A DNA stretch of 64,000 bases, taken from assembly GCA_963402885.1 (NCBI GenBank), contig OY727097.1, positions 6,572,001 to 6,636,000 of the forward strand. Reading direction: 5' to 3'. The stretch is from Antedon bifida. Taxonomy: Eukaryota > Echinodermata > Crinoidea > Comatulida > Antedonidae. A program made the position numbers and the translations under genes. This document shows positions 66-64,000 of the stretch, in pieces (the first letter of the stretch is position 1; the number at the start of each line of letters is the position of its first letter). Below the pieces are notes generated by a model, which had not been told where the DNA came from, did not search any database, and was given only the letters and a program-made list of their open reading frames with translations.

Positions 66-2233
66 ATCTAACAATAAGTCTCATAATACCATGGTTACCA
101 TTAGGACTACCACCTGTATAACATTCATATACGCCATCATCTTTTCTTCGTATGTTTTCAATCATAGCAGACGTACTACCCCTCAGATTGTGTATTTCCT
201 CACCATAATTATGTCTCCAACGTAAATCGTTAAAATCAGCACCTTTAATGAGATTGATAGTGACGGAATCTCCTATACTGACTGTTATTGTTCTGTGCTC
301 CATTTCAATAGTGGCTATAAAATAATTAGGCAAATATTAATAATAAAAGTTAGGTTTGCGCGTTATACGATGTGTTTCGAAAGTATAATATGATTGAGAA
401 TGTCTTGACGTTTCGGTTGTTATGCTAAAACAGTCTCCTGGAGAAAGCTAGGCAAGGAAAGATGAGTATCAGGTGAGGTCAACAGAATGCAAATAATAGT
501 ACATAACGTATTGATATATAGACTTTGTTTTATGTTTTTGAATAACCTATCAAACAGATATACATTTTTTTAATGAATTAAGGCATGAATAACACCATGA
601 CCTTACTCACCAGAAGCGGATGTCAAGACAATTGCTGAATTTGTGACTACTCCATTTTTCTTTGCTTCAAATGAAAATACACCGACTCGTTCAGCCTGGG
701 TTGGTAAGACAACACCTAGATACGTGTTGACAGTGTGTACTCGATATCTAATTGAGCAACTTGTTGGAAATATTTTATTATTTGGCATAATTTTAGATAG
801 ATCAGTACGAGTATTGGTACCCGTATACGGCCCAGTATCATCCCAAGTCACGTTGTCTTTCCCATCAATATTTTTGTATAATATTCCAACTGATAAGTCT
901 CTAATGTCTTTGTCGCTGTCAATTGTGTATCCTCGAAACCAACTATTACCAAAAGTTTCAACCAGTGGTGTTCCAGAAAATGTTGTTATATCTAAAGGAC
1001 CTTTAAAGAAAATTCCATTTTATGATTAATTTATTATTAATTCCATACTCATGTTCATATTCCCCTATAGAGTTAGCAGTCGCATTAAAAAAATCACATA
1101 CTCAGCCCGTCAAGATATGAAACGTAAATAATATCATATTGGGGTTATTCTCTTCAAAAAAGGAGGAACACGCGATGTTTTAACATACTAGATAAATTAA
1201 ATACAATTGTAATTGTGTATATTTCCTAACCATACCATAATGCCGTTGTGTTGTAAAAGCCTTCAAACAGACATGCGTGGAAGAACTTCACAATAATTAT
1301 GTGGTCACTACAATATTGTTTAAAGTATTGAAATAGCTATTAAAGTTCCCGTTTAGCTATGGAAATGTTCCCATGTTCCCATCCTCTATCGTCAGTGTCC
1401 TACGCCATCCATGACAAGCGAACAAGATTACGTAACCTTAATTGGTTTAAATTAGTCGTCTTGTCTATTTAAAATGAATAGTATACACATGTACAAGTTT
1501 ATAGTAGAGTCAAGATCTAAATTACGGAACTTCTGTACAGAAAACATTCAGCCGACTACTGTAAGTTGATTACTGCGAGGATTAACTATGTATTAGTATA
1601 TGTTCCCTATGCATGACGTAGTGTCAGTACAATAACATTTATTGTATTATATATTAACAATTTATTCATACAAGAAAAAAACAATACAGCTTATTCCATT
1701 GTGTTGGTACTAATGTGTAGTGTATAATGTTGATCTGCTGTCAGCTGTATCGGAGTAGGCCTAGTTGACTATTATATAACAGTTTCGTTAGAAACGCAAT
1801 GTGAAGCGCACCAAATCAGTTTTTTATGGAGATTTTTAATCATTGTGTAGTAGAAACACACCCTATACAATCCTATATATGTTATATTTACTAGTAGAGT
1901 GACCACTTAGTTTGGCTTCCTTCTACACGCACATCTCTCAATATGTTTGAAAAACATCGGTGGTATAGGCCTACCGGTTTCCCATCCCTGAACAACTAAA
2001 TGTAAACTGTATGCTTGCGTACACTGTAGTAAAAGGAGTAGGCCAACGTCAAACCTTTGTTTTATTTATGTAGGCCTAGGATCAACATAATATCAATGAA
2101 TACAATTACAGAACACCGAATTTAAACAATGTATAAACTAAGTAGCCTACATACCTGAGGAGAACCCGGAATGAAACGTCATAGACAGAGCTAGTATCAA
2201 GTAGAACGAGTTTGTAAAAAGTTTAGCCAACAT
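66..2233 (-). CDS. Gene A: Tie-like receptor of the tandem family, 5' exons only (runs off left edge)
   Basis: Three exons are visible. Exon 1 (2155-2233) starts at an ATG and encodes a signal peptide, MLAKLFTN then a hydrophobic core, ending phase 1. Exon 2 (611-1000) encodes the novel N-terminal domain, with the family landmarks DLSVGILYKNIDG, NVTW and GVFSFEAKKNGVV. Exon 3 (66-314) encodes an Ig-like domain with LRW (core Trp), DDGVYECY (D-x-G-x-Y-x-C) and the closing MRLIVR. Each exon has GT/AG boundaries and exact phase-1 symmetry. In the paralogues EGF, FN3, TM and ITAM exons follow, but here they would lie beyond position 1. The second Ig cysteine is present while the first is replaced in the strand-B position, as in the other copies. 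Product: secretory-pathway receptor, probably type I membrane protein by analogy with B and D. Confidence 0.85.
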
Positions 2234-8953: not shown

Positions 8954-9194
8954 TCACTTTTCAAATGTATTATCATAAACATGATCCGGTACAGGTTGAG
9001 TGTCAGCAGGCTGGGTGTTTGCGTACACGTGTTCACCAGAACCTGCAACGATAGGCTTTATACCTTCATATTCACTTTCTTCATATTTTTTAGACAAACT
9101 TTGATAATCTGTATCTATGGCACAAACATTTTGTTGAGTAGCAGATACTTTATCAACGTCTTTATCAACGTCTTTTTCTGAATGATTTCTAAAT
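8954..9194 (-). CDS. Gene B exon 13: ITAM-bearing cytoplasmic tail
   Basis: The acceptor TTTTATAG joins the phase-2 TM exon and the frame runs 79 codons to TGA. Order: basic RFRN stop-transfer, an acidic/lysine linker with a duplicated DVDK, the ITAM (D-T-D-Y-Q-S-L, eight residues, Y-E-G-I), a short linker, then HVYAN and HVYDN near the end. The Asp at -3 of the first Tyr, the 8-residue spacing and the aliphatic +3 residues all fit the ITAM consensus. A further Tyr lies between the two ITAM tyrosines. Y-x-N is the classical Grb2-SH2 docking pattern; its use here is inference. Confidence 0.9.
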
Positions 9195-12100
9195 CTATAA
9201 AATGAACAAATGTACCGTAGTTGTTAATAATAGTTCATCATCGTAAAGGTTGTCTTTCTATTTTTTTTTCAGATATTATTTGATCGTAATGTTCTGTATA
9301 TATCATTGTCTAATTTCTTAATTTTTTCAACCATATAGTAACAGTATAAAATTAATCAAATTAAATACAGAAATTACTTTACTTTAGAGTAATACTTTAC
9401 CGTTTAGAAACCGTCAAGGTGACAGCAACTGTGATAACTGTCCAAAGTATTGAGCCAATTATAACCCCTATGACGTAACCTGAAAATAGGACATTTTATC
9501 GTTTTTATAGTTATTATTATTATTTTTTTAAATGGTTTTTCTCGTGTAGAATTTTTTTTAACGAAATACTACATACAGCTTCTTGACGAAAGGTCTAGTT
9601 TCTAAACAATTATTTATGTATCCTTTAACATTTATAACATCCATATATAAAGCTAGTACGAAAGCCCAATCTTAATCCAAAAGCAATATAGAAAAATACA
9701 CACCTTGATTATTCTGGTTTTTTTCTGGTGAATCACAATTTGTTCCTAACATAAATTTCTTTGTGTCAGATGTCCCATTAATGTTTAAATGTGACGCAAA
9801 TACTGTGAATATATATTCTTTACATGACTCAATTCCGTTACCAAGTACAACTTCAGTTTCTGTAGTATTTCCTTTCTGAAATACACCACCTGACAGTTCA
9901 TAATGGTAGGTCACCTGATAGTCTGGTATGTCGCACAGAGAAGCTTTCCACTTTATCACAAGATATGTTCCATTCGTGAATGGATTACATTCCATCGATG
10001 GTTCTATATTGGGAATATAAAATAAATCAATTAAATTGAATAGATATACTGTAAGTGGTATTTAACGTGACAAAGAATCTTTAACGAACCATTATGTCCT
10101 CTCCCCAAGTACCAGCAATCTCCCAGTTATTAATAACTCGAGCGTTTACGACATAAGCAGTACAACTTGATAATCCTGATAGTTCAACTTCTAATTCAGA
10201 ACTACTCGTTGTGTTGACTACATCTTGTATATTTCCATCTATGTCAGAGTACTGTACTTGATATCGAAGAATAGAGTTACAATGGATTCGATCATAATCA
10301 CTAGATACAGGCTGAAAATATAAACAATTTATGTAAAGTAAATAGATAAAATATTCTGTTAAAATATTTGTTTGCTATGTAGATCTGACAATGTATGCTT
10401 TACTATAATAATTATACTGTTTTGCGAGAAGAAAGAGTTTTAAAAATAGGCTTCATGTGAAAGTACCGCACTGATGTAATAATCACAAACGTTTTATACG
10501 ATTCAATGACATACTTTTTAATTAGTGTAACAATATAATAATGAGACATTTGCCGTGTTTGAAATCTGTGAATTATGAACAATAACATTGAAAACTATAG
10601 GCACCATTGTAAATATACTTCACCTTTACACTTAAGATCATCTGATCATTTGTTGCTGCTTTCAACTCTATCTCAGGTTCATCCAAAGGTTCTGTATTAT
10701 AGAATAAAACAATAAAAAACCAAAATTTATACCAAACGACAGTTTGTGAATTAATTGTATGACTCTAATTTTGTTATTATACTGTAGTATCTCTGTAGTT
10801 AGCAATTTCACAGCTTACTTGTGCATATGGTGCTTGTTGATCCAAGTTCACTTCTTGGTCCATCTACCTCAATACCATCAACCATCCTCGAAAACTGAGA
10901 GTAAAATTGAACTTGAGTATTTGGTATGAGATTATCGATAAAAATAAGCAAATAATTATCTGGTTCAGTTATTGATATAAATGAATTCATCTCCGATGAT
11001 TTGTATGAAAGCTTCCGTTTTGTAATTCTTCCTGTTCCATAGTCTTTACCAAAAATCCAAGTGACGTCAAACGTTAAAGTAGTTGCTGTCTGTTTCACAA
11101 CAGTTGGTGATTCGGAGCGGTATGGTAAGGCTAATTACGAAAAAAAAAAAAGAAAAGACACTAAACATAAGTTATTCTGTTTTTTTTAAAAATAAAATTG
11201 AGAATAATTTATAAAGGTATGTCTATGACATTTTTTACTGTGTTACCTATGTTGCAGTTTGGTCCAGCCCAGGCATCGTGACATCCAATTGAACAACTAC
11301 CATCTCGCTTACACTCTTCAGAGTCTTTGCAGTGGCATGGGAAGTTACACAAGACACCAAAAAATCCAGATGAACACGACACAGGCTCTTTAGAAACAAA
11401 GCATATTATTATTGTAGCAATTACCAACAAAAATTATAAAATTATGTGAAATTATACTTTTTACTCAACATAGATAATGCTTGCCACTGATGTAGAGTAC
11501 AAGATGATAACCAAATGTACGTTCGTTTGTAGAAAAGACATTGGATGAAGTATTAATTTTTAAATGATTATGATAAGGAAATCTGTAAGAATGTAAAAAA
11601 CGCCGCACAAACCGAGATTCGAACTTAAAATTGTATAAAAAAAAAGTTACCGAAATCTTTAAATGTTTTTAGAGTTTGCATATTAAGGATACGCAAAATG
11701 CCTGCGAAAAGTATTTGAATATTTGTAGAATGTTACTACTAAATACGCTTTTTTATCAAAACCATTTGTTTAATTACATTAAATGTATAATTATGACAGG
11801 AATAGATAAAGAAAAGTATCTACAGCAGATAATATATTACCTAAACATTTGTCGCCTGTGTAACCAGACGAACATGTTAACACGGTACCGGTACATCCTG
11901 CTATTTGATTACAATCACTGTTACAGTTACATTTTTGCCGACAACCTGCTCCATAGTATCCAGCCACACACTCTGAAAAAATGAAATACGGTAATTCAGG
12001 TTTATTGAAAAGGTAAATACAAAGACAATACGCCAGGATAAACCGGTTATTGTCACTGAAGTAAAGTGATAAAACTACACTTAGCCTACACTTAGCCTAA

Positions 12101-15100
12101 TTTTGTAAACTATACAAATTATGAAACACCATCAGTGGTGTTGGGAACTAATTAGTTATCAATAATTTTAATTATTAACCTGTAGTGCAATCTTTGCCTC
12201 CAAAACCATTGATGCACGAACAACCAACTGGATCAGGAGGACATAGAAGAGCTCCTTCGCAATCTCCACCAGTAGAACACTTATTCTTGCAGTCACGGCC
12301 CCAGTTGTTATTTCCACAACCTGTTGTTATAGATATTTTCATAAATTAAAATGATACACCAAACGCAATTTCAAATGGCATACATACCAATAAATTCTAT
12401 GTTTCAACATTGTTTAAATTACCATCTTTACAACTGACGCCTTCAAATCCTGCTGGGCAAATACAGACACCCGTCTTATCGTCACACACTCCGCCATTAT
12501 AACATACCGGACAGTCCATTTCACAATTTGGAGGATTCCACTTTGGTGAAGGACAAGCTATTAACAAATTAGTATAAAATAATAATTAATTTGTCTGATA
12601 ATATATTATCTTTGTAAGCCAAATTATAGGGTCAAAATTGTCTTATTCTTAGAACCAATTATGAAGTACAATAGTACATTTAAACACAAAAGTTCATACG
12701 ACAATCGTACACAAAGTGATTTCAAAATGCCAACGTGTGCAAATGGCTATTGGTGTTTAAAGCATGATTATCAATTAAGTCTAGACTTGATCCTTTTCTT
12801 GATCCAGGCATGCAGTTGCAAAAATAATTGCTGATTGACTTTTTTTAATAGAAACTGCAACCCAGACATAGGCCTACCTCTTACAATCAGCCTCATAACA
12901 CCATGGTTACCATCAGGGCTATTGCCTGTATAACATTCATATACGCCATCATCTTTTCTTCGTATGTTTTCAATCACAGCAGACGTATTACCCCTCAGAT
13001 TGAGTATTTCTTCACCGTAATTATGTCTCCAACGTAAATCGGTAAGATCACCATCTTTACTGAGATTGATAGTGACAGACTCCCCAATGCCGACAGTTAT
13101 CGTTCTATATTCCATTTCAATATTGGCTGAAGAATAATAAAATTACTATTACTATTGCTAAATAGACTTACGTAATGTGATGTTCTGTTAATACACTATA
13201 AAAAGAAATTAAATTTTAAAAAAAGAGTATCAAATCAATCAATCAAGTATTCGTTATTTATCATCATAAACATGAAAATAACATCGTGACCTAACTCACC
13301 AGAAGCGGATGTCAATACAATTGCTGAATGTGTGACTACTCCATTTTTCTTTGCTTCAAATGAAAATACACCAACTCGTTCAGCTTGTGTTGGTATAGTA
13401 ACGCCTAGATACGTGTGAACATTGTGTACTCGGTATCTAATTGAGCAACTTGTTGGAAATATTTTATTGCTTGGCATATTTGTTGTTCTTTCATAACCAG
13501 TATTAGTACCCGTATACGGCCCAGTATCATCCCAAGTCACGTTGTCCTTCCCATCAATGTTTTTGTATAATATTCCAACTGATAAATCTCTAATGTCTTT
13601 GTCGCCGTCAATTGTGTTTCCTCGAAACTCACTATTGACATTTCCAATCAGTGGTGTTCCAGAAAATGTTGTTATATCTAATGGACCTTTGAAAAAATTT
13701 GCAGTTACATTATGTTAAGTAAGTGGGAAAGAAAGAGAGAGAGAGGGTAGATATATTTGCTTTAAAATGTCTATAGAAAAGAGAAGAATGTGATACACCG
13801 TAATGAATTTGGAAGACAATATAATTTATTGTGTCTTAACTGTATTTAGAAACCGCAAGTTTTTACATCAGAATACCGATCGGGTGAATGCATGTTTTTG
13901 CTTTTTTATTTGAATTAGAAAAAGTTAATTCAATACTCATGTTCATATTCCCCTCTCTAGAGTTAGGACTCGTATTCATACTAATAAATCACATACTCAG
14001 CTCGTGAAGATATCAAACGTAAAAAAAACAAAATACAAAACACATTGATAAATAATAATATTATTAGATCTTTAAAAAAGAAGGAACACGCGATGTTTTA
14101 ACATACCAAATGTTTAGAAAATTAAATAAAATTGTAACATAATGCACCGTTGTGTTGTTAAAGCATTCAAACAGACATTCGCGAAAGAACTTGACGCATA
14201 AATATGGGGCCACTATGATAGTATTGTTTAGGGTATTGAAATAGGTATTATTAACCGATATACGGTCAGTTTCCGTTTATCTATGGAAATGTTCCCATCC
14301 TCTATCGGAAGTGTCCTACAAGATTACTGTGGACTAACATATGTAACATTAATTGGTTCAAATTAGTCTAATTTGTCTATTTAAAATGAATAGTATACAT
14401 GTACAAGTTTATAGTAGAATCAAGATCTAAATTACGGAACTTCTGTACAGAAAACATTCCAGTCGCCCAGTTGCTAGGAGTATGTTTCCTCATGCATGGC
14501 TAGACGTAGTATCAGTACAGTAAATATATATCAGTTTACATTACCGATGTATTCATACAATAACAAATAATACAGTTTATTCCATTGTGTTGGTACTCAC
14601 GTATCTCTACTGAGTAAGGCATGAATGTCATAATGAAAGCAGTTTCAATAGAAACTCAATAAAGCGCACTAAATAAATATGTATAGGGATGTTTAACGTT
14701 GTAATTGTAGTTTTGCGTTGCGTAGATTTTTAACGTTGTTCAGTAGAAACCACAATCCTCTATTATTATGTTATATTTACCAGTAGAGTGGCCGAGTATT
14801 TTGGCTTTCTTCTACACGCGCATCTCTTATTATGTTTGATAAATATCGGTGATAATTCATACCTCAGTTTCCCATCAACTAAACTCAACTAAATATAAAC
14901 TGTAAATATAAAGTACATTGTAGTCTCATTGCAGTCCTATTTCAGTATAGGGAGTATGTAAAACCTGTTTTATCCACATGTAGGATCAACAAGAAATGAA
15001 TAAAAATAGAGAACACCGATGTTAAACAATGTAAATCTAAATACATACCTGATGAGAATCCAGAATGAAACGTGAAAGAGAGAGTTATTATCAAGTAGAA

Positions 15101-15127
15101 CAAGTTTGGAAAGTGTTTAGCCAACAT
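8954..15127 (-). CDS. Gene B: Tie-like ectodomain receptor with cytoplasmic ITAM (complete, 13 exons)
   Basis: Exons: 15049-15127 signal peptide; 13300-13686 N-domain; 12878-13126 Ig; 12423-12557, 12180-12320, 11841-11972 and 11247-11387 EGF modules 1-4; 10819-11130 FN3-1; 10624-10691 plus about 10086-10311 FN3-2; 9704-10003 FN3-3; 9401-9479 transmembrane; 8954-9194 tail and stop. The lengths sum to 2490 nt, about 829 residues, in one open frame. EGF-1 (CPVCYNGGVCDDKTG) and EGF-2 (LCPPDPVGCSCINGFGG) resemble the first EGF repeats of Tie receptors. The TM helix (GVIIGSILWTVITVAVTLTV) has no charged residue. The tail carries DTDYQSL-x8-YEGI, a consensus ITAM, then HVYAN and HVYDN. There is no kinase domain before the stop. 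The exon 10 donor is weak: the phase-correct cut is C|GTTAAA, because the PSG ending of the paralogues is lost. Signalling through Src/Syk-type kinases is inferred from the ITAM. Confidence 0.88.
11566..11640 (-). repeat. tRNA-derived SINE fragment
   Basis: On the minus strand this reads a degenerate B-box-like segment (TTCGAATCTCGGTTTGTGCGGCG), a spacer, then CTTACAGATTTCCTTATC. It matches the junction of the SINE at 24262-24455. It lies in the intron between EGF-3 and EGF-4 of gene B. Confidence 0.55.
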
Positions 15128-18730: not shown

Positions 18731-18953
18731 TCAATTTGTAATTGTGTTACCATAAACATGTTCTGGTACAGGCTGTTGAGGGTTTGCGTAAACGTGTTCA
18801 GGTGGAGAAGTAGCAACAGTAGGCTTAATACCTTCATATTCACTTTCTTTGTATTTTTTAGATAAACTTTGATAATCAGTATCGATCGTGCATACATCTT
18901 GTTGAGTAGTTGATGATTTACCAACGTCTTTTTTCGAATGTATACGTCTAAAT
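18731..18953 (-). CDS. Gene C exon 13: ITAM-bearing cytoplasmic tail
   Basis: An open exon of 73 codons plus TGA follows a TTTTAG acceptor. The motif is TIDTDYQSL, eight residues (SKKYKESE), then YEGI, followed by EHVYANP and EHVYGN. It differs from the gene B tail by scattered substitutions and a shorter linker, but both ITAM tyrosines, the +3 aliphatics and both Y-x-N asparagines are kept. Conservation of these residues despite the upstream frameshift suggests the lesion is recent or artefactual. Confidence 0.85.
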
Positions 18954-21900
18954 CTAAAATTAACCAATTGTAGCGTACATTTATAATTAGTTTACCCTCT
19001 GTCTGCCAAAGAGGCAAGGCTTGTGGTTTCGTCAGGTAAGTCATTATCTAATTTCTTTAATTTTCAACCACAGAAGTAATCTAAAAGTAATAGCTTACCG
19101 TTCAAATATCATCATGGTAATAGCAACTGTCGCAATTAATGAGCTAATTACAACACCTACAACGTAACCGTAACCTGAAAATAAAAAAGGACACATTTAA
19201 ATATTTTTTCATGTTGAATTTTCAAGCTCCTTGACGAAACTTCATATTGTTTTAGAATGTTCATAACAATTACTGATTCAAAATCTGAGAGAAAGAATGG
19301 ATGCTAAATAAGGAAATGTGTTCTTAACCTTGCTTCGTTTGGTCACAATCTATTCCAAACACAGTTGTTTTTGTGTCAGAAGTCACGTTATCATTTAAAT
19401 ATGACGCGAAGACTGTGAACGTATATTCTATATTTGACTCAATTCCTTCACCAAACAAATTTCAGTTTTTGTTGTACTTCCTTGCTGGAATATTCCACCT
19501 GACAGTTCATAATAGTAGGTCACCTGATAGTCTGTTCGAGTGTCGCACATAGATCTCCACTTCATCAGCCAGTGTGTTCCATTAGTAAATGGATTACCTT
19601 CTATCGATGGCTCTATTGGAAAATAGAATAGACTATATATTGGAAATTATTAGGCCAATTAGTGTTTCTAACGAAATAATGTTTCATATTATTTGTATAA
19701 ATTAAAGTAACCCTGATCCCTAACCCAAAAACTGATGTCTGTTACGTTAGTATACCTGATGGTGTTGTTTCTACTGTTATGATCTGTCCCCAATTTCCAG
19801 CAATCTCCAAATTATTAATAACTCGAGCGTTTACGACATAAGCAGTACAACTTAATAATCCTGATATTTCAACTTCTAATTGAGAACTGTTTGTTGTGTT
19901 GACAACATCTATTGGATTTCCATCAATGTCCGAGTATTGCACTTGATATCGAAGAATATAGTTACATTGGATACTATCATAATCATCAGAAACCACCTAA
20001 ATGATAGGAATATTAAAGTTTATGTGATAACATGAACATATGTAATAGTTAGTAGTTACATTGAATTCACTAGATATAGACTGAAAATACCAGGCAATGT
20101 AAATTGTTTTTAAATATAGAAAAAAATACAGTAAACGACTCGTTATTTGGATCTGATACAGAAATAATTTTATTTCATGAGAACAAACAATTGGAGAAAA
20201 CTTCGAATGAGTTACTACTAGAAACATTGTACGTCGTTAAAACTGTGTAACACTTTTACTGAAGATACAGATACAGAAACGTAATGTATAGGCTATTTTT
20301 AGGTGGTGCAGTATTTGCGGACCCTTTGAAGAACATTAAGGACGGGAAAGCTATAAATACTACTTTCATTGAACGTACATATACCAATAACGTGATGTAT
20401 TTGAAACATTCTAACAAGAAGACATCTATAGAGAACATTGACAGAGAGGCATCTGTAGTAAACACTGTTACAATACCTTTAAACTCACGATCATCTGATT
20501 ATCTCCAACTGTTTTTAATTGTATCTCAGGTTCTTCCAAAGGTTCTATATTATCATATGTAATACAATTGATTAGAACGGAAAAATAATAAATTACTTGT
20601 TTTATACAGTACTCTCAGGTATGTTGTTCATTGGTAGGTTCATTTTCATAGTATATATTTATTATGACAGTTTATGAATTGCTATTAGTATTACATCTTT
20701 CGTATGCAGATGCTTTGTTATTTTTTACGGATTACTGTAATATAACTAGTATTAGGTTATTTTTTGGTAATTTTGTTTAATTATTTTGCTGAATATTAGA
20801 GCTTACCTTCACAGATTGTGTTAGTTGTCCCAAGTGCACTTCTTGGTCCATCTACCTCAACACTACCAACCATCCTCGAAAATTGAGAGTAGAATCGATA
20901 TTGTGTATTTGGGATGAGATTATCAATTACCATAAATAAATTATTATCTGATGCAGTTATTGATATAAATGAATTCATCTCCGATGATTTATACGAAAGC
21001 TTCCGTTTTGTAATTGTTCCTGTTCCATAGTCTTCACCAGAAATCCATGTGACGTCAACAGTTATAGTTGTTACTGCCTGGTTTACAACACTTGGCGGTC
21101 CGGACTTGTATGGTAATGCTATACTTATTTAAAAAAATAAATGTCATTCACTTGATCCTGTGTCATCTTATACCAAGGAGGGTCTAATATAAGTCTCTTA
21201 CAAATCTTATAATATATCACATCATTAACAGGTATTTGATTACTATGTATATAATTATTATGATTAGTTCTCACATAAAAGTATTACTGTAGGCCCTACA
21301 TTTTTTATTGATGCATATCACTGAATGAACTGAATTATAGAGTTCTATGCTAACATATACCAATAATACATGTTATATTAATGTAGGCCTACATGCATGA
21401 ATAAACTGTCTAAATCATCCTGTGAAAAACTAAACTGGAAATTAAATAAATTAAACTATAGCCTATCTTTCCAACCGTTGAATTATAAACAATATAGGAT
21501 ATAATGTGTTCATATTATGTTATCGTTACATATGCTGCAATCAGTTCCAGCCCAAGCCTCGTTACATCCATTAGGACAACTTCCATCTCGATTACAATCT
21601 TCGGAGTCTTTGCAGTGACATGGATAGTTACACAAGACACCAAATAATCCCGACGGACAGCCTAATGTGGATTCTAAACAGAGCAGAGATATAGTTAAAT
21701 ATATTACATCGTACAGTTAGTGTTATTAAAAAAAAGATAATACGACTACAATATCAAGCTACTATTTGCATATACAGTACCTTGACATGTATCACCAGTA
21801 TATCCAGACCAACAGGTTAACCCGAAACATCCCGTGTGGGCATTACAATTGTCACAGTGGCATTCTTGACGACAATCAGCTCCATAATATCCAGTCAAAC

Positions 21901-24900
21901 ACTCTATAAAAGCGATCTGTGTTTTCATACCTTGTTTTTGTTAAATATTATTTCTGATCTCACCATACTTTATTTACTATATTACAGCAATAATATAAAT
22001 ATTAACGTCACTTTTTTACCATAATATAACATTAATACTTCTACTACTAATAAAGTACTACTATAACAATAACCTGTATTGCAATCCTTTCCTCCAAAAC
22101 CATTGATACATGTACAACCTACTGGATCAGGTGGACATAAAAGATATCCTTTGCAACTTCCACTAGAAGAACACACAACATTGCAGTCACGACCCCAATT
22201 GTTATTTCCACAACCTATCGCAAATAAACACGTTAAATAGAATCCATTTAATATTTATTTGTTTACACAGATTTTAGCAGTTTATAATTAGCCCTACCGT
22301 TTTCACAAGAATCGCCGTTGAATCCTGCTGGACAAATACAGACACCCGTCTTATCCTCACACACTCCGCCATTATAACATACTGGACAGTCCATTTCACA
22401 GTCTGGAGGATTCCATTTTGGTGAGGGACAAGCTAATAGATTTTCATTAAAATATAAAATACATGCAGTTGTATTACTCGACAGGTTTATAAATTATAGA
22501 ACAGAAAGTAACTTTATATTCGGCAAATCTGAGTAATGGTTTAAATTACAGAAATATAAACTAATATATAATTAAATGTTTTTCAATATCAGAAAAAAAA
22601 TAACAACTGTACTATTATCTGTACTTATTTATTTTCTCGCAGGTCTATTTTTATCAACAGAAGATGAATTCACTATTTGGATCCAGATAAAATTAATTCA
22701 AAATATAAACTTTTGGAAACAAACAAGTTACAGTATTCGGCATGAAAACCTTTAAACAATATTGTACAGTAATTATAATATTTGTGGTGGTTTGACGTGT
22801 TACACTTTTTACAGACTATTTTGTATTATTCATTTGTAACACTTACCGCTAACAATAAGTCTCATGATACCATGGTTACCATCCGGGCTATCACCTGTAT
22901 AACATTCATATACGCCATCATCTTTTCTTCGTATGTTTTCAATCACAGCAGACGTATTACCCCTCAGATTGTGCATTTCCTCGCCGTAATTATGTCTCCA
23001 ACGTAAATCGTTAAGATCACTTCCTTTACTGAGATTGATAGTGACAGACTCTCCTATACTGACCGTTATCGTTCTGTGCTCCATTGAAATATTGGCTGTA
23101 AAAATTGAATCAATACGTCAAAGAAACTAATCGTAATAATGTAATGGGCTGATGTGTTTTTCTAGTGAACAATCACATCACATGTCTTCACCGTAGTTAT
23201 GTCTCCAACGTAAATCATTAAGATCACCACCTTTACTGATATTTATAGTGACAGACTATCCAATACCGACTGTTATCGTTCTGTACTCCATTTTCACATT
23301 AGCTGTAAAATTATGGCAATGTCAACTAAGTAGTGTAATAGGCTGATGTGTTTTCTAGTTGATCATTTTGATCTTTATAACAATAATAGCATGAGATACA
23401 TCATGTCATTACTCACCAGAAACGGATGTCAGTACTATTGCTGAGTTGGTAACTACACCATTTTTTTTTGCCTCAAATGAAAATACACCAACACTTTCTG
23501 CAGCCTGTAATCCACTAACACCTAGAAATGTCCAATCTCTAGCGCGTATTCTGTATCTAATTATGCTACCGATGGGAAATATTTTACCGTCTGGCATATT
23601 TTCCAATCTCTCTCTAGAGCTGGGACCGTTAAAATTACCAGTATCAGCCCAAGTCACGTTATCTTTCCCGTCGATATTCTTGTACAATATTCCAACTGAT
23701 AAATCTCTAATGTCTTTGTCATCTTGAAGTGTGAATCCTCGAAAATAACTATTCTGGTTAACCAGTGGTGTTCCAGAAAATATTGTTATATCTAATGGAT
23801 CTTGAACAAAAAAAGATTGTATAATCCTCACGAGGCAGATGCAGAATTTACAGTACACACATATATGACAGTCAATTTACTTTTTATTAATTATGTAGGT
23901 CTAAAAGTAGACTATTGCCTCGGAAAGTGTCGCAAAAATAATAAAGTAGGACGGAATGCAATACATACATTACTTTAAGTGATAACGTATTATTTTATCA
24001 CAGTTCTACTTAACCGATGTTACGAAAAAAATCGGTATAGGGCTATTTGCAACAGATAGTTCATTTATCACATTGACAATGTGACACCCACCCTGTCTTG
24101 TATAGAGCGTATTTCAATTAGGGTGGGTTATAAAATTAATAACAGCTTTAACGTTTCAGTATTTATAAGACAGAACATGGTCCGAACCGTCCCACGAAAT
24201 TATTGCTTCCGTACACTTCAACAAGAATAGCATTTGTAATACAAAGCAGGGGCGGATTTTGTAATATATATATCAGGCAAAGAACAGTAATTCTAAACCG
24301 CCCGGTGATATACTGAAATTTAATTGATTAGTTTTAAGCGATAAAGATAAGGAAATCTGTGAGAATGAGAAAAAGTCGCCCCAACCGAGACTCGAACTCG
24401 GACCGCCTGCTTGATATGCAGATATCCTAACCATTAGACCACTGGGGCTTTCATGGTATTGTTCAAACTCGATTGGATAGCGACTCTTCAACATTCTCGG
24501 CGTGGTACAGCGGAACAGCACTAGTCCTCAGTTGTACGCACGCGCACCAGAGATCAAATTGATACGCCCTCATCTTTCAGTATTTTTATTATATATAAAT
24601 ATTATGCAGCCATTTACATACGATTTTATCAACGATTTTACAGGAAAGGGGGGTACAAATCAACATTTAAAATCGTTAAAATCTTCAAAAATTTTTAAAA
24701 GTTAAACCGAGTTCAACTTCAACGTTACGATCGGTAAAACTGACTGACCAATCAAATAGTTCATAAATTACGTCATCATTGTTTGTGAAAAAATACGTAC
24801 GCGCTGACAATTCTTGATTTTTTACAACGCGACGATGTTTTTTGTACTCTTTTAAAGTCTGATATTTCAAAATAACAAGTGTAAGTAAAACTAAATTTTA

Positions 24901-25539
24901 ATATAAAAACAATTTAATTTAATGTCTTTAGTGTAAAGACTAGATTAAGATATCGGCGAAAACATGTCCTATGCCGGCTGGGTTGAAGCATCAAAACTTT
25001 TTCAATTTTCACACGGGCCCGGCTGCGCGTGACCGGCCTTGGCTTCGCAAAACTTCACGTCCATGTGTCCCAGCAACGTTGAAAGAACCAAGAAACCATT
25101 CACGATCGCGTAAAAAATGTGTGAAAATTCGCGACGGGAAAACAGGCTTTAGGCGCAAAAAAAACAGTTCCGTATATTAAATATGGTCTATAAAACCTAC
25201 TATATTCAGATAATTATATGACAACAATCGACTGGCCAAAACGCCTCAGATGCTATCTCTGGGCGTTTAGAAACACATTTTCCGGGGGAGCATGCCGGAC
25301 CACCCTAGACGATTATTTTTCCCATATCGGCCCCCTCTCTATCAACATCCTAGATCCGCCCCTGCAAAGATTATTTTAATGAATACATATTAGAACCCTG
25401 AGCAAATAGTGAACAAGCTATATACAATTATGATAATATGCCTGTATAATTAAAAAACACTACCTGCGAATCCAAAATGGAACGTCAAAGATAGAGCTAT
25501 AACCAGCCGGAACAAGATTGGTAAACGTTCGGTCAGCAT
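18731..25539 (-). CDS. Gene C: Tie-like ITAM receptor, frameshifted in FN3-3
   Basis: Exons: 25464-25539 signal peptide (MLTERLPILFRLVIALSL); 23417-23800 N-domain; 22847-23095 Ig; 22298-22432, 22074-22214, 21781-21903 and 21530-21673 EGF 1-4; 20807-21118 FN3-1; 20477-20544 plus 19756-19996 FN3-2; 19329-19612 FN3-3; 19099-19174 TM; 18731-18953 tail. All junction phases match B and D except FN3-3, which is 284 nt and one base out of phase. Near 19456-19463 the frame shifts and hits TAG at ...ELSQI, while the other frame continues as family-like sequence to the exon end. The TM and ITAM exons are intact and open (DTDYQSL-x8-YEGI, HVYANP, HVYGN). As read, the product would be soluble and truncated. 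A recent lesion, a polymorphism or an assembly error are all possible. Exon 10 has a decoy copy of its own 5' end just upstream, near 20065-20090. Confidence 0.8.
19456..19463 (-). other. Frameshift site in gene C FN3-3 exon
   Basis: Aligned by eye, gene D has four more bases and gene B one more base in this stretch between the conserved segments meaning TTETEL/V and GIE(S/P). The result in C is an in-frame TAG a few codons later. The exon length is 2457 minus 1 over the whole CDS, so one compensating base would restore the whole downstream frame including TM and ITAM. Confidence 0.75.
23180..23305 (-). pseudogene. Degenerate extra Ig exon in gene C
   Basis: Between the N-domain exon and the real Ig exon lies a second copy of the first half of an Ig exon. 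It has a good acceptor (TTTTACAG) and reads NVKMEYRTITVGIG, then an in-frame TAG where the family has GAG or GAC. It continues with recognisable DLNDLRW coding sequence and stops abruptly at the conserved NYGE region. It resembles the gene B/E Ig exon (MEYRTI) more than gene C's own (MEHRTI), so it may come from unequal exchange or a once two-Ig gene. Confidence 0.75.
24247..25364. mobile_element. hAT-like non-autonomous element with nested SINE
   Basis: The ends are inverted: CAGGGGCGGAT at 24247 and ATCCGCCCCTG ending at 25364. CAGGGGCGGA-type ends are common in hAT/MITE families. A clean 8-bp target duplication is not seen (flanks ATACAAAG and CAAAGATT). The interior has no transposase frame; it contains the SINE at 24262-24455 and a GC-richer stretch around 25010-25160. 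It lies in intron 1 of gene C. Confidence 0.55.
24262..24455 (-). mobile_element. tRNA-derived SINE
   Basis: The minus strand starts with a full tRNA-like cloverleaf (24378-24451). The acceptor GCCCCAG pairs with TTGGGGC, the D-arm has an A-box-like TGGTCTAATGGTTAGG, the anticodon stem TCTGC/GCAGG holds loop ATATCAA (apparent anticodon ATC), and the T-arm is CCGAG-TTCGAGT-CTCGG. It continues into a SINE body (TTTTTCTCATTCTCACAG, ATTTCCTTATC) ending in an (AT)n tail. Because the body recurs at 11566-11640 and 48810-48880 and an ATC anticodon is unusual, I call it a SINE, not a working tRNA. Confidence 0.7.
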
Positions 25540-27973: not shown

Positions 27974-28190
27974 TCAATTATTACTATAAACATGATCCTG
28001 TACAGAATCAGACTCGGAGTTTGCGTAAATGAATTCAGGCGGACACGTAGTAACAGTAAGCTCAATATCTTCATATACACTTTGTTCATATTTTTCCGAC
28101 AAACTGTGATAATCAGTATCTATTGTGCATACATTTTTTTTAACAGCAGAGGATTCAACAGCGTCTTTTTCTGAATCTATACGTCTACAT
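27974..28190 (-). CDS. Gene D exon 13: ITAM-bearing cytoplasmic tail
   Basis: An open exon of 71 codons plus TGA begins after TTATTTTAG. It reads RCRRIDSEKD, a linker, then TIDTDYHSL, eight residues (SEKYEQSV), YEDI, followed by FIYAN and HVYSN. The ITAM is conserved although YQSL became YHSL and YEGI became YEDI, so the pattern rather than the exact sequence is kept. The acceptor is only 28 bp from a recent LINE insertion. Confidence 0.9.
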
Positions 28191-31100
28191 CTAAAATAAA
28201 CAAAGTGTATGTATATTTTACCAACAAATTTACAATTATATAAATGGAAAATTAAAAACACAAAAAAATGTGAGTTATGTGATGTAACTGAGGATGAAAA
28301 CCACATGTTTTTCAAATGTAAAAGCAATGTCTTATTATGGAAAAAAATCAATGAAATATTTAAAAAGTTAGATAATAGTAACTGTTCTTTTGAAGAACTA
28401 GTTTTTGGATCTGAATGCAACATAAAGAATAAGTTATACTCAATTGCTCTATATTCTATATATAAAATAAAAATATTGTCAGAATTAAATAGGTCAATCT
28501 GTAAAAACTCATGGATTATGTTTAAAAATATACTTACACAAGAGCATTCCATGAATGTATTTTATTAATTTTTTTTTTTATTTTTTTTTATTTTGAAGGT
28601 AACTGTAAATAAAGTAATTTGTACAAAAATGTAAATAGTATAAATAAAACAGAAAGAGAAAAAAAAAAGGAAAAACACTAAAAAGGAGAGTAAACAAGAA
28701 GCACGGAAAAAGCTATACTATACAAGAAACTAGTTGCTTTTGATTCTATATATGTATTGATATTGTTTCTGTTTATATGTAATGTAAATGTATAAATGAT
28801 TGCTTACAGACTTCTTTTATTTTTAAAGATGTAAGGGGAAACTTTATATTTATAAATGAAAATATTTATATATTTAAAAAGATAATACGCAAACATAAAA
28901 AAAAAAATTGTTTATTTATCAAAATGATTATGTTTTGAAATGAAATAAAGGTGAGTGAACCTCACAAAAGAGAAAAAAAAAAAAAAAGTGTATGTATATT
29001 TATTTCATCAACGGATCTCTTTTTCAGAAATAATTTGATCGTAACATTCATAAGTCATAGTCATTATCTAACGTCTTTTCATTTTCAACCACAGTAACAG
29101 TCTAGGAGTGATACTTTACCGTTTCGATATCATCAAGGTGATAGCAACTGTGAGAACTGTCCAAAGTATTGATGATCCAATTACAACTCCTATTAGTATT
29201 ACGTAATCTGAAAAACATGAAACATGTCACATTGTTATAGTTGTAATTTTTAATATTTTTTTCCATGTAGAATTCTAGGTCTAAATCTCTTCCACTGTTT
29301 CCATTAACAATACCAATACTTTATATCAATCAATCTCAATACACACCTAATTGCTCTTTCTGGCTTGGATCACAATTGGTTCCAAACCTAAATTTCTTTG
29401 TTTCAGATGTACCATTATTGTTTACATATGATGCAAATACTGTGAATGTATATTCTATACTTGGCTCAATTTCTTCACCAAATAATACAAGTTCAGTTTC
29501 TGTTGTACTTCCTTGCTGAAAGAATCCACCTGACAATTCATAATAGTAGATCAGCTGATAGTCTGTGATTCCACAAGTAGGAGATTTCCACTTTATCACA
29601 ACATGTGTTCCATTTGTGAATGACCCACTTTCAATCGCTGGCTCTAGCATTACAATATAGAATAAAAAATAAATTATTATAAGCCTAATCGTTACTTACA
29701 AGGATGGTAATATGTCTAGAATAGGGAAGAGTAAACATTTCACTCTTCCCTGATTAGGACTATTATATATTTTAGTAAATGGTCAACCAACCTGATGGCG
29801 CTGTTAGTATCTTTGTATTTTGTCCCCAATTACCGGCAATATCCATATTATTAATAACTCGGGCGTTTATGACATATTCAGTACAACTTGATAATCCTGA
29901 TAGTTCAACTTCTAATTGAGAACTGTTTGTTGTGTTGACAACATCTTGTGTATGTCCATCAATGTCCGAGTATTGCACTTGATATCGAAGAATATAGTTA
30001 CATTGGATGCTATCATAATTACTAGATACAGGCTGAAAATACAACAACAAAAATTCAGGTAAGGTAAAATTGGTATGACAGCTATGACATGGAAACCAGA
30101 AGGAAGTGGGAGAGTCGGACGGCCCAAAACAACATGGCGAAGAACAGTGGAAAAAGAGGGAGAAACCCTTAGATGGAGGATATGAAACGAAGCAAAACTA
30201 TAACCAACTGGAAAATTTCCACTGCAGCCTTATGATACACGAGGCATGCAGAGGTTAGGTAAGGTAAAATATAACCAAAATACAGTAAATGACAAATACC
30301 GTTGTTTGGATATGATACTAGTAACCGATTTAATATTTAAAATCTAAAAAACTTTGACACCTAGCTACTACTAAACTATAGGCGATGAAATATATGCGGA
30401 CCATTTTAGAAACTGTTTACGTCATTAAAACCTAAAACAGCAACATAATGTATACTTTTAGGCGACAGAACATCTGCGGAACCTTTGAGAAACCATTTAC
30501 GTCATGAAAACTATGTAATACTTTCACTGAACATACATAAATACCAATAACATAAGGTATAATGTATGAAACATTCTAACAAACAAGAATAAATCTATAT
30601 TAAACAATGTACCTTTACACTCACGATCATCTGATTATCTTCAACTGTTTCTAATTCTATCTCAGGTTCTTCTAAAGGTTCTATTTCATAATACAAAAAA
30701 TAAATTGCAAACAGTAGGTAAGTTGATGTTGATTTACGGCCTATTATTATAGACCTAAAACAACGACTTTGGGTTTAATTGCTGATTAACAGTAACATAA
30801 CTAATAGACTTCGCATCTTTTTAATGATTTTGCTGTAATATTCTTACCTAAACAGATTGTGTTGGTTGATCCAAGTGTACTTCTTGGTCCATCTACCTCA
30901 ATACCACCAACCACCCTCGAAAATTGAGAGTAGAATTGAACTTGAGTATTTGGGATGAGATTTTCAATAACAATAAATAAATCACTATCTGGTTTAACTA
31001 TAGATGTAAATGAATCCATCTGCGATGATTTATACGAAAGCTTTCGTCTTGTAATTGTTCCTGTTCCATAGTCTTCACCAAGAATCCAAGTGACGTCAAA

Positions 31101-34100
31101 TGTTATATTTGTTGCTGTCTGGTTCGCAACACTTGGCGGTTCAGAACGATATGGTAATGCTAATTATTAAATAAATGCAAATTGTTTATGTAAAAACTGT
31201 TTAAATTCATTTCAATAGGGTATAGCAGAGAATGCTGATCATGTGCCATCAAGGGGAATCTTGAATATGTCACACATATTAACATATTTTATTTTTGTTA
31301 TAATTTTTAGACTTACCATTATTACGGTAGAGTATTATAGTGCTCGACTAACAGTAGTTTATAATGCTATTTCAAGCTACTGCAGTATTGTGTTGTGTAT
31401 TATGCATGTCTATCAAAACTGAAAATTACACTTTTTATATTAGTGTTTATGATCCTTACCTATGCTGCATTCATTTCCAGTCCAAGCCTCATGACATCCA
31501 TTAGGGCAAATTCCATCTCGATTACAAATTACAGAATCTTTGCAGTGACATGGATAGTTACACAAAACACCAAAGAATCCAGACGGACAGAACGGAGGTA
31601 CTAATATAAAAAAACAAAAACAAAACAGGTCCATATGATTTTAAAAACAAAAAACTTTCCATAAAAGATATGACTATAAAACGATATCTTTTGGATTTAA
31701 TACTTAGGCAAAAGTAAAAAAAAAAAATTATGGAGCAATGGTTTTGAATATTGAATAATATTTATATAGTAAGTTAACTTTAGTTTGCAAAGTGAAGATA
31801 AACCAAACAACTTAAATAAATTAGAAACTGAGTGAAATACTTGGCAATACAGAGAAAGCAATAGAGGGCGTGATATTTATTATTTCGGCCCATATTGAAG
31901 ATAAAAATAACTCGAGATTTTAATCAGAATTTGTAACCAATACATCAATTATTCTGACAATCAATAGACATGTCTGGAAGTATATAACTAATAACGCCTA
32001 AAAAGTCAGGATGATAACTTAAAAATTGTGGACGGATCCGTGCAAACAAACAACCAAAAACAAAAGAAACAAAGCTATAACTATACTTTTGCTAAGTAAC
32101 AAATAGTGGTAGTATCACAGAAGTATATACTTATAGAGTATACAGTACCTTGACAAGTATCACCAGTGTATCCATCCAAACAGTCTGACCCGGATGAACA
32201 TCCTGTGTGTTTATCACAAACACTATCGTCACAGTGACATTCTTGGCGACAATCTGCTCCATAGTATCCAGCTGCACACACTATAAAACGTAGTTCAGTA
32301 TTATTCCATCACAAATAATAATATGTTTACAGTTTTCACATCTTATTTTATCATTATTTCTTATCTTACTTGATTGCACATGTAATAATAACCAATCATA
32401 ATATAGCAATAATGCTAATACAGTATTAATTATAAACTTGCAATTAAATCTATATATTATAGATTTACATAAGGGCAAATTTCAATAACCTGTACTACAA
32501 TCGTTTCCTCCAAAACCATTGATGCATGTACAACCAACTGGATCAGGTGGACAAAAAAGCATTCCAGTACAATTCGCACCCTCACTGCTACATACAGAGT
32601 CACATTTACGACCCCAGTTGTTATTTCCACAACCTATCGCAAATAAAATACATACAATTACGTTCAATAGGATGTATGCTATGTTTTATTTGTTAATTAC
32701 ACGTCCACGTATTTTAGCAGTTTATATTTAGGCCTACCGTTTTCACAAGAAGCGCCGTTGAATCCTGCTTGGCAAATACAAAGACCCGTCTTATCGTCAC
32801 ACACTCCGCCATTATAACATACGGGACAGTTCATTTCACAGTCTGGAGGGTTCCATTTTGGTGAGGGACAAGCTAATAAAGACAACATTTAAAGTGAACA
32901 CACTATACGATTATATTGGTTGGTATATTTGTTTTAGTACAAACAGAATTCTGTGACTAATGTTTAAGTTTTAAGTTTATACATCATGTTTTCCAAACTA
33001 GCATTTCAAATCTCAAAAACTACATAATAAACTAATTTAAAAATAAAATAAACGTAATTCATTTCAAAATGTACTTTTCTTTTGTACCATTGTTTAATAA
33101 TATCCCTATAAATCTGTATCCATGCTGTTTATTTTTTAAAAAAGTAGAATTATTATTATTATATGAACCGGCCACATCAAATATTTTATCTGACGTGTTT
33201 CCATCTGATTAATTTATGTGTAATAAATGTTATAACTTACTTCTAACAATAAGTCTCATGATACCATTGGTACCATTAGGACTACCACCTGTATAACATT
33301 CATATACGCCATCATCTTTTCTTCGTATGTTTTCAATCACAGCAGACGTACTACTCCGCAGACTGTGTATTTCCTCGCCGTAATTATTTCTCCAACGTAA
33401 ATCGTCAAGATCACTTCCTTTACTGAGATTGATAGTGACAGACTCTCCTATACCGACTGTTATCGTTCTGTGCTCCATTTCAATATTGGCTGTAAAAATT
33501 GAATCAATAGGTCATACAAACTGAACGTAATCATGTAATGATGCTGATGTGTTTTTCTAGTTAATCACCTCTATACAAACAAATAATTGATAATTTTGAA
33601 CACCATAAGGATAGCAGGCATTACTCACCAGAAGCAGATTTCAATATTATTGCTGAATGTGTGACTACTCCATTTTTCTTTGCTTCAAATGAAAAGACTC
33701 CAGTCTGAGTTTGCAAGTTATTAACACCTAGAAGTGTGAAATATTGGTGTGTTCGGTATTTAATTATACTTTCGGTTGAAAATATTTTACCGTCTGGCAT
33801 ATCTTTTGTTTGCTGCCTAGAGCTTGGCCCTTTAAAATTACCAGTATCAGCCCAAGTCACGTTATCGTTTCCATCAATATTCTTGTACAATATTCCAACT
33901 GATAAATCTCTGATGCCTTTGTCTTTTTGAAGTGCGAATCCTTGAAACCAACCATTACTATTCGCGTCAACTAGAGGTGTTCCAGAAAGTGCTGTTATAT
34001 CTAATGGCTCTTTAAAGAATTAAAAAAATAGTAATTCTTAATGAAGTTAAAGTGAATCCAATCGGGTGAATAATAGTACTGTAGACCATTTGCGGGAATA

Positions 34101-34410
34101 CGGTATACATGTCGAATAAATAGATTATAATATAAAAATGTGACACACTATTAGCAGTGGCTGTTTGCAGATTGGAGGTAACCTTATGATTGGTCTTTCT
34201 ATTGTTACGGCAACTTTCAGATAGTTATTGCTTCCACACACAAAATATATATAAGTATATTTCAATACAAACTAATGAATAAAATGAGGAACCCCGATTT
34301 CAAAAAAATGTAAGCAAGTCAGTATAAAACATACCTGAGAATCCGGAATTAAACGTAACACATAGAGTCGCAATCAGGTGGAACAAGTTTGAAAAACGTT
34401 TAGCGAACAT
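27974..34410 (-). CDS. Gene D: Tie-like ectodomain receptor with cytoplasmic ITAM (complete, 13 exons)
   Basis: Exons: 34335-34410 signal peptide (MFAKRFSNLFHLIATLCV); 33629-34009 N-domain; 33241-33489 Ig; 32738-32872, 32490-32633, 32149-32280 and 31460-31600 EGF 1-4; 30848-31159 FN3-1; 30613-30680 plus 29792-30032 FN3-2; 29347-29643 FN3-3; 29120-29207 TM; 27974-28190 tail. The total is 2481 nt, about 826 residues, with every junction in phase. FN3-1 keeps the family core DVTWI-GEDYGTGTITKRKLSYKSS. The TM segment is ILIGVVIGSSILWTVLTVAI. The tail has DTDYHSL-x8-YEDI plus IYAN and HVYSN. Two LINE fragments sit in its introns (28219-28984 and 30071-30256); both leave the exons intact. This is the cleanest copy in the window, and its proposed function is the same as for B. 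Confidence 0.9.
28202..29001 (+). mobile_element. 5'-truncated LINE with 17-bp target duplication, in gene D intron 12
   Basis: AAAGTGTATGTATATTT occurs at 28202-28218 and again at 28985-29001, bounding a plus-strand insert with an A-rich 3' end. The insert encodes the C-terminus of a reverse-transcriptase protein (28209-28568). It carries the LINE zinc-like motif C-x2-C-x8-H-x4-C (KKCELCDVTEDENHMFFKC) seen at the end of L1/Tx1-type ORF2. The intact target duplication marks a relatively young insertion, antisense to gene D. Confidence 0.9.
30057..30270 (+). mobile_element. Short LINE 3' fragment with 14-bp target duplication, in gene D intron
   Basis: AGGTAAGGTAAAAT at 30057-30070 is repeated at 30257-30270. 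The enclosed plus-strand sequence translates to a typical LINE ORF2 C-terminus (WKPEGSGRVGRPKTTWRRTV, EKEGETLRW), then decays with stops. It sits between the two exons of FN3-2, just outside the exon at 29792-30032, and is absent from genes B and C. Confidence 0.85.
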
Positions 34411-60534: not shown

Positions 60535-61205
60535 CAACTAATGTAGAAACAGTCAACAGCTTATGTAGTAACGAAAATTGCCTCCCAGCTTATGTAGTTA
60601 CTATCGCCAGCTAATGTAGAAAATGTTATATATTTTACAAAAATGTCTATAATTCATGTGCAAGCATCGATCTTTACTTAGCAAATGACCACCTCTTTTA
60701 AGAAACCACAACCTCTTTCTCTCTATTAAAGAACCGCTTCTCATAATCGACTATCTCCCGTCACAACGACCTCTGGTAAGTGACCACATCTATTGAACGA
60801 CCACCATCTCTTTTAAGGGACCATTTATCATAATCGACCACCTCTCGGAAGTGGTCCCTTAAAAGAGGTGGTCATTTACGAGAGGTGGTCGCTTACGAGA
60901 GAGGTGGTCGATTATGAGAAGTGGTCCATTATGAGAGGAGGTGATCCCTTACGAGAGGTGGTCGATTATGAGAAGCGGTCCCTTAACAGAGATGGTTGGT
61001 TACGATATGTGGTCGTTTTAGAAAGTTGGTTGCTTACGAGAGGTGGAAAGACTGATAGCTAAGTAAAGATCGATGCATTTGCACATAAATGAGACATTTT
61101 TGTAAAATATATAACATTTTCTACATTAGCTGGCGATAGTAACTACATAAGCTGGGAGGCAATTTTCGTTACTACATAAGCTGTTGACTGTTTCTACATT
61201 AGCTG
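60535..61205. mobile_element. Foldback element
   Basis: The left arm (about 60537-60690: ACAGTCAACAGCTTATGTAG, CCTCCCAGCTTATGTAGTTA, ATCGATCTTTACTTAGC) is the reverse complement of the right arm (about 61052-61205). The interior is itself mirrored: CCACCTCT-type units at 60690-60850 face AGAGGTGGTC-type units at 60845-61045. It is one long imperfect palindrome, without coding capacity. Confidence 0.85.
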
Positions 61206-63865: not shown

Positions 63866-64000
63866 CACTGTGGAATGGCGAAACCTACCACAGCTTTGGA
63901 ACAACAAATAGTAAAGGAGTTTCTATCTTGTTTAAGTCTAGTTTATATGTTAAAGATATTAAACTCAAATTTACAGACGAAGAAGGTAGAATACTAATTT
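63866..64000 (+). pseudogene. Second copy of the LINE endonuclease fragment, start only
   Basis: It repeats 62096-62230 exactly as far as the window goes, as part of the tandem duplication. Confidence 0.85.

Follow-up and report, generated by a model that had tools for sequence, protein, structure and literature searches.

In a stretch of 64,000 nucleotides from the crinoid Antedon bifida (contig OY727097.1, positions 6,572,001 to 6,636,000; hereafter the window), five head-to-tail copies (c1-c5) of one receptor gene were found, all on the minus strand. In c2 and c4, type I receptor frames are open across 13 exons, with GT-AG at every intron and intron phase 1 save before exon 10 (phase 0) and exon 13 (phase 2). 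The ectodomain is related to that of the angiopoietin receptors Tie1 and Tie2, and is followed by a transmembrane (TM) helix and a tail with an immunoreceptor tyrosine-based activation motif (ITAM). The reading moderately favoured here is that these are tandem crinoid receptors predicted to signal through the ITAM in cis, which descended from a receptor protein tyrosine phosphatase (RPTP) and are opposed by siblings that carry protein tyrosine phosphatase (PTP) domains.

The transmembrane helix and the ITAM tail

The TM stretch (VIGVIIGSILWTVITVAVTLTV) contains zero charged residues, and the single uncharged helix of the initial annotation was thereby recovered. A helix of this kind suits a receptor with its own ITAM in cis better than one that pairs with an adaptor. 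The tail, 72-80 residues from a single exon, contains DxDYxxL-x8-YxxI and two YxN sites, namely IDTDYQSLSKKYEESEYEGI (YxxL-x8-YxxI, D at -3) with VYAN and VYDN in c2, IDTDYHSLSEKYEQSVYEDI with IYAN and VYSN in c4, and IDTDYQSLSKKYKESEYEGI with VYAN and VYGN in c3. The arrangement first annotated, a single last exon with D-x-x-Y-x-x-L-x8-Y-x-x-I and two Y-x-N motifs before the stop, is present in the open frames of c2 and c4, and the ITAM is retained in c3 despite the frame shift in its exon 11.

Homologues (P numbers below) were taken from the best 120 of 141 matches, with candidates of 0.55-1.75 times the query length. The pattern [DE]xxYxx[LI]x6-8Yxx[LI] was observed in the tails of c2, c3 and c4 and in four Antedon proteins, in one of which the motif ends with V. 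In all seven tails with the ITAM (c2, c3, c4, P0002, P0008, P0019, and P0021), the acidic residue at -3, the first tyrosine, L at +3, the x8 spacing, the second tyrosine, and I or V at its +3 position were conserved (7/7 each). Each of five tails (the three window tails, P0002, and P0019) was shuffled 20,000 times; the strict pattern arose by chance in 0.01-0.09% of shuffles (P<=9e-4), whereas the loose pattern Yxx[LIV]x6-12Yxx[LIV] arose in 2.3-4.6% (2.8-4.4% for the three window tails), indicating that the significance is carried by the acidic residue and the tight spacing. Across the five full-length tails, 8/9 motif positions (YxN included) were invariant versus 15/71 others (Fisher P=1.2e-4, only a guide and no independent test, since the tails are related sequences). 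With V allowed, the strict pattern occurred six times among the 120 homologues listed, four times in cytoplasmic tails, all of one Antedon clade, and twice outside recognised tails, in P0007 (within Ig2) and P0018 (no TM found).

The predicted protein P0002 of another species, Antedon mediterranea, has the same architecture and tail as the window copies; its TM and tail are joined as in exons 12-13 (90% identity over 106 residues), its overall identity to c2 is 77%, and its model starts at c2 residue 97. A region search with the TM and tail of c2 returned only P0002 and P0001; since P0008 and P0019 escaped it, it is a poor guide to wider distribution. Antedon P0001 ("isoform X2", 787 aa) ends past the TM with an unrelated 29-residue tail without ITAM, for which no counterpart was found in the window, and is possibly a non-signalling form.

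The same tails could be read as inhibitory, with the second motif as an immunoreceptor tyrosine-based inhibitory motif (ITIM, S-x-Y-x-x-I) and the first resembling an immunoreceptor tyrosine-based switch motif (ITSM, T-x-Y-x-x-L), which would recruit SHP-type phosphatases and keep an RPTP role without a catalytic domain of its own. The ITIM consensus [SIVL]xYxx[ILV] is fitted by five of the seven tails (SEYEGI in c2 and c3, SEYQGI in P0002, SVYEDI in c4, and SAYDDI in P0019), and the close relatives are phosphatases. However, N stands at -2 in P0008 (NEYEGV) and P0021 (NEYAVI), every tail keeps the x8 spacing and the acidic residue at -3, and the 12-residue distance between the tyrosines suits the tandem SH2 domains of Syk-type kinases, so that an inhibitory tail is considered unlikely. 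YQSL and YEGI also fit YxxPhi endocytic signals, through which AP-2 would take up a scavenger or clearance receptor without ITAM signalling. Such signals need neither the acidic residue nor the fixed x8 spacing, and they leave the YxN sites unexplained, making an endocytic tail quite unlikely.

The Tie-related ectodomain

The annotated order of Ig, EGF, and FN3 modules was correct within limits. In the Pfam scan of c2, fn3 was above the cut-off, ig (20.3 vs 21.8 bits) and EGF_2 (21 vs 22.1 bits) were just under it, and exon 2, at the weak first Ig position, was unrecognised. The best solved-structure match was Tie2 (6.4e-32, residues 210-373, from the end of Ig2 to EGF3), with the next molecule at 1.7e-10. 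When profiles of 12 crinoid ectodomains (11 after filtering) and 17 vertebrate Ties were compared with hhalign, the N terminus, Ig2, EGF1-3, FN3-1, and FN3-2 were aligned (E=3.5e-58). As single exons, exon 3 matched the Tie Ig2 region (probability 95.9%) and exon 8 matched Tie FN3-1 (95.2%), while matches were poor for exon 2 (3.8%), exon 11 (2.3%), and exons 9-10 (16.9%, weak). FN3-3 was unaligned to Tie, and nothing corresponds to Tie Ig3, whose place is taken by a fourth EGF-like module. By these comparisons the ectodomain is Tie-related (homologous and largely collinear), yet not a full Tie ectodomain, because Ig3 is lacking, exons 2 and 11 alone are unmapped, and an EGF-like module is added. 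The kinship to Tie in the initial annotation was therefore upheld, and no better non-Tie match was present among the structure and homologue matches listed.

Compared with vertebrate Tie1 and Tie2, the window receptors share the collinear Ig2-EGF1-3-FN3-1-FN3-2 order and an EGF2 with PDPxGCSC, and differ by lacking the kinase and Ig3, by an additional EGF-like module, and by the ITAM tail. Draper, CED-1, and MEGF10 are likewise EGF-rich receptors with an ITAM-type motif but are without Tie-type Ig/FN3 modules; the EMI domain that marks Draper/MEGF10 had no match in the Pfam scan of c2, which has four EGF-like modules and no long EGF run.

Another explanation is that the copies are degenerating truncated RPTPs, by-products of tandem duplication that lack PTP exons, with the tail as a functionless remnant. 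This is in line with the frame shift in c3 exon 11, with exons 9-13 of c5, which were looked for in the window and not found, with the retroelements within the array, and with the tail dN/dS of 0.89 in c2/c4 (0.54 in c3/c4 and 0.20 in c2/c3). Against it, two copies are open across all 13 exons, ectodomain dN/dS among c2, c3, and c4 is 0.35-0.54, the motif residues are better conserved than the rest of the tail, and the same tail is kept in P0002, so that degeneration appears very unlikely. Per-exon dN/dS in c2/c4 was highest in exons 13, 11, and 2 and lowest in exons 3 and 4 (0.25 each); since the pattern differs by pair (exon 3 reaches 0.93 in c3/c4), no inference is drawn on which domain diversifies.

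Table 1. Receptor gene copies, exons of c2, and other features of the window
Feature	Position	Strand	Description
c1	67..2233	-	exons 1-3 only; truncated by window edge
c2	8954..15127	-	13 exons, 829 aa; ATG at 15127, TGA ending 8954
c2 exon 1	15049..15127	-	start codon and signal peptide; GT donor
c2 exon 2	13300..13686	-	N-terminal domain, Tie Ig1 position; collinear only in full-length profile alignment
c2 exon 3	12878..13126	-	Ig domain, Tie Ig2
c2 exon 4	12423..12557	-	EGF-like 1, Tie EGF1
c2 exon 5	12180..12320	-	EGF-like 2 with CPPDPVGCSC, Tie EGF2
c2 exon 6	11841..11972	-	EGF-like 3, Tie EGF3
c2 exon 7	11247..11387	-	additional EGF-like 4, at place of Tie Ig3
c2 exon 8	10819..11130	-	FN3-1, Tie FN3-1
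c2 exon 9	10624..10691	-	FN3-2, first part
c2 exon 10	10086..10311	-	FN3-2, second part; weak donor GTTAAA, placement unlike c3/c4
c2 exon 11	9704..10003	-	FN3-3
c2 exon 12	9401..9479	-	uncharged transmembrane helix and KR stop-transfer
c2 exon 13	8954..9194	-	cytoplasmic tail: ITAM-type motif, two YxN motifs, stop
c3	18731..25539	-	same 13 exons; frame shifted within exon 11 (19612-19329)
c3 tail exon	18953-18731	-	ITAM retained
Ig exon fragment	23303-23181	-	second, stop-containing fragment in c3 intron 2
c4	27974..34410	-	intact like c2, 13 exons, 826 aa; tail exon at 28190-27974
c5	39874..59794	-	exons 2-8 at 46994-39874; weak match to exon 1 at 59794
EGF-3 exon duplicate	40978-40844	-	stop-containing, in c5
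Open reading frame	43023-43781		adjoins reverse transcriptase fragment; no Pfam match
Reverse transcriptase fragment	44036-44398	-	second such element, between c5 exons 4 and 5
Tandem repeat	47917-48011		16-base unit, 6 copies
LINE open reading frame	55286-58651	+	1122 aa, open; endonuclease and reverse transcriptase domains
Direct duplication	61144-64000		spacing ~1.77 kb, 99.6% identity over 1087 bases (blastn)
Open reading frame	62023-62961		endonuclease-type, in duplicated region

As shown in Table 1, the window also contains other elements. The long interspersed nuclear element (LINE) sits in the long intron 1 of c5, on the opposite strand to c5. Polyadenylation signals 3' of the stops were abundant in the AT-rich DNA and hence uninformative.

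Intracellular domains of the crinoid relatives

The best matches were the Antedon proteins P0001-P0003 (68-77% identity to c2 and c4), followed by proteins of Anneissia japonica. Among the closest ectodomains (Antedon, 63-77% identity), an ITAM was observed in P0002, P0008, and P0019, a double PTP in P0003, and both in P0021; P0001 and P0004 have a short tail with neither, and the models P0006, P0007, and P0012 stop ahead of the TM. Twelve Antedon matches listed, ITAM and PTP forms among them, were on a contig of one and the same length (31,901,198 bases) and are thus probably on one chromosome.

A Pfam PTP domain was present in 7 of the 120 homologues listed (P0003, P0021, P0024, P0037, P0050, P0066, and P0098), and a kinase domain in none of the 40 crinoid rows among them. 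The kinase domains among the matches listed belong to other echinoderms, amphioxus, and vertebrates, and a crinoid Tie kinase may exist outside these matches. On sequence comparison, those of the matches listed that have a known enzyme domain and stand closest to the window copies are crinoid RPTPs and not Tie kinases. When the C-terminal 420 residues of six relatives with a kinase were compared with the 64 kb by tblastn, no match was obtained (a search without a kinase positive control), so that the downstream kinase exon considered in the initial annotation was not found. Queries from the intracellular parts of 13 relatives (P0003, P0021, P0024, P0037, P0050, and P0098 among them) revealed no PTP exon in the window and matched only the exons for ITAM tail, TM, and ectodomain, plus a few sites by chance, while the P0003 ectodomain gave 36 high-scoring segment pairs. 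The initial annotation had proposed that a Tie receptor kinase lost its kinase and gained an ITAM. Its coupling of a Tie-like ectodomain to an ITAM tail stands, whereas the replacement of a kinase does not; the Tie homology of the ectodomain would suit this path, but among the matches listed the closest relatives that have an enzyme domain bear a PTP, and loss of a kinase is highly improbable.

As a caution on naming, among the matches listed five proteins of Anneissia that are called "Tie-1-like" or "angiopoietin-1 receptor-like" (P0010, P0014, P0016, P0023, and P0034) were without a kinase domain, though several of the five models are incomplete.

The ectodomain of P0003 was 68%, 69%, and 72% identical to those of c2, c4, and c3, and 73%, 72%, 67%, and 62% identical to those of the Antedon ITAM proteins P0002, P0008, P0021, and P0019. 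P0003 has two PF00102 stretches, of which the first (D1) has an intact signature (HCSAGAGRTG) with WPD and KNRY, and the best structural matches of its PTP region were PTPRS, PTPRF/LAR, and PTPRA. Where P0003 and P0024 (and, as judged by the tail only, P0009, P0011, and P0016) have PTP D1-D2, the window copies have the ITAM and a stop. P0021 belongs to the same ectodomain clade and has the same ITAM as the window copies, and differs from them by two following PTP domains. Its first PTP domain reads HSSGGGRSG and WSD without KNRY, which makes catalytic activity very improbable; the PTP part of P0021 was closest to that of P0003 (54% identity).

The tails of Anneissia P0009, P0011, and P0016 contain YANxEPxYGNTNLENQEYxPIEL, and those of P0011 and P0016 go on with sequence that resembles the beginning of the P0003 PTP region (72% and 67% identity). 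No Pfam PTP domain was reported in P0009 and P0016, so these tails are called PTP-type only by the P0003-like stretch. Identity to c2, c3, or c4 was 53-55% for P0009 and P0011, 55% for P0016, and 46% for P0024. YxN or YTN motifs precede the PTP in the Tie-like crinoid RPTPs, and the window YxN segments resemble those of P0009, P0011, and P0016, with shuffle P<0.05 in 7/9 comparisons (range 0.0015-0.15, uncorrected for multiple tests). Anneissia P0009 has two F5/8 type C (discoidin) stretches N-terminal to its Tie-like ectodomain, a further ectodomain variant.

Evolutionary history and proposed signalling

An ectodomain tree of 26 rows was obtained, with the root chosen by the analyst and P0024 within the chosen outgroup. 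Four window copies and 10/13 Antedon rows formed one clade (100/99), and seven Anneissia rows, three with a PTP-type tail, formed another (100/100); Antedon P0017, P0018, and P0024 were outside both, as was P0024 in a tree rooted towards Patiria kinase-bearing proteins. Since PTP-type tails are found in the window/Antedon clade (P0003) as well as beyond it, the PTP is likely the older state in this receptor lineage. Similar ectodomains with opposite tails in one species were observed in Antedon (ITAM in P0002, P0008, and P0019, PTP in P0003, all in the one 100/99 clade), and no ITAM/PTP pairing was seen within the window.

Several observations weigh against descent from an RPTP or against the signalling proposed. 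The PTP-first polarity leans on the chosen root, and P0024, which makes the PTP look older, is long-branched and carries a flag for possible misplacement. The ITAM rows are separated from five PTP rows by one branch, but the support that it gives to a single ITAM origin is weak (63/30). With P0021 inside the ITAM clade, one simple gain followed by loss is insufficient; either the ITAM arose while the receptor was still PTP-bearing, with repeated later loss of the PTP, or P0021 is chimeric. P0021 stands for one cluster of predicted proteins (3 members, one contig), in which adjacent genes could have been fused, and a region search with its juxtamembrane segment found no second protein with ITAM and PTP, a search that is insensitive since P0008 was missed too. 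Comparisons of the window YxN segments with the juxtamembranes of P0003, P0024, and P0021 were non-significant in 8/9 cases (c3/P0003 0.033). No ITAM tail was observed in the 19 Anneissia rows, though 12/19 models are without a TM and so have no readable tail. The tail dN/dS values of c2/c4 and c3/c4 given above are also adverse.

In the favoured descent from a phosphatase, an ITAM would have appeared in the juxtamembrane segment of an RPTP ancestor, and the phosphatase would have been lost afterwards, once or repeatedly. Clustering by ligand would then lead a Src-family kinase to phosphorylate both ITAM tyrosines, Syk would dock on the phosphorylated ITAM by its tandem SH2 domains, and the YxN sites would recruit Grb2-type adaptors. 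PTP-bearing sister receptors, whose ectodomain is similar and whose ligand may be shared, would provide a built-in opposing arm like that of vertebrate activating/inhibitory paired receptors. Both the dual phosphorylation and the recruitment of Syk are predictions from the motifs, and Syk is among the kinases named in sea-star eggs (PMC11593052). By analogy with echinoderm Tie proteins, the receptors are likely expressed on coelomocytes or phagocytes; proteins annotated as Tie-2-like receptor and RPTP are mentioned for starfish coelomocytes (PMC13409769), and SpTie1/2 for sea urchin coelomocytes and axial organ (PMC12113024).

ITAM-type receptors are already described from Botryllus and Hydractinia, so an ITAM in an invertebrate is in itself no novelty. 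Botryllus FcoR and Hydractinia Alr are described as invertebrate families with ITAM/hemITAM or ITIM in cis, but they have other ectodomains, and their inhibitory side is an ITIM and not a covalently attached PTP (PMC12065747). Vertebrate CEACAM1/CEACAM3-type pairs are similarly presented as having similar ectodomains with an ITAM on one partner; the opposing partner uses an ITIM (PMC5112662), whereas in crinoids the phosphatase itself is attached. No description of crinoid Tie-like ectodomains with ITAM or PTP tails was found in the literature covered (titles and abstract openings, with most subscription papers outside coverage).

More tentatively, crinoids may possess a paired system of their own made from RPTPs, in which one arm keeps the phosphatase, the other became an ITAM receptor, an intermediate with ITAM and dead phosphatase is still encoded, and tandem ectodomains serve immune or self recognition; this wider proposal is possible rather than probable. 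The sequences suggest that on/off receptor partners evolved outside vertebrates, and they offer a non-vertebrate case of possibly opposing receptors with a common Tie-like ectodomain. If the wider proposal is true, ITAM signalling arose here by turning an inhibitory phosphatase receptor into its opposite. The favoured reading would give a concrete route to an ITAM receptor from the juxtamembrane segment of a receptor phosphatase, and the origin of activating and inhibitory immune receptors would become testable in a lineage with long genome contigs.

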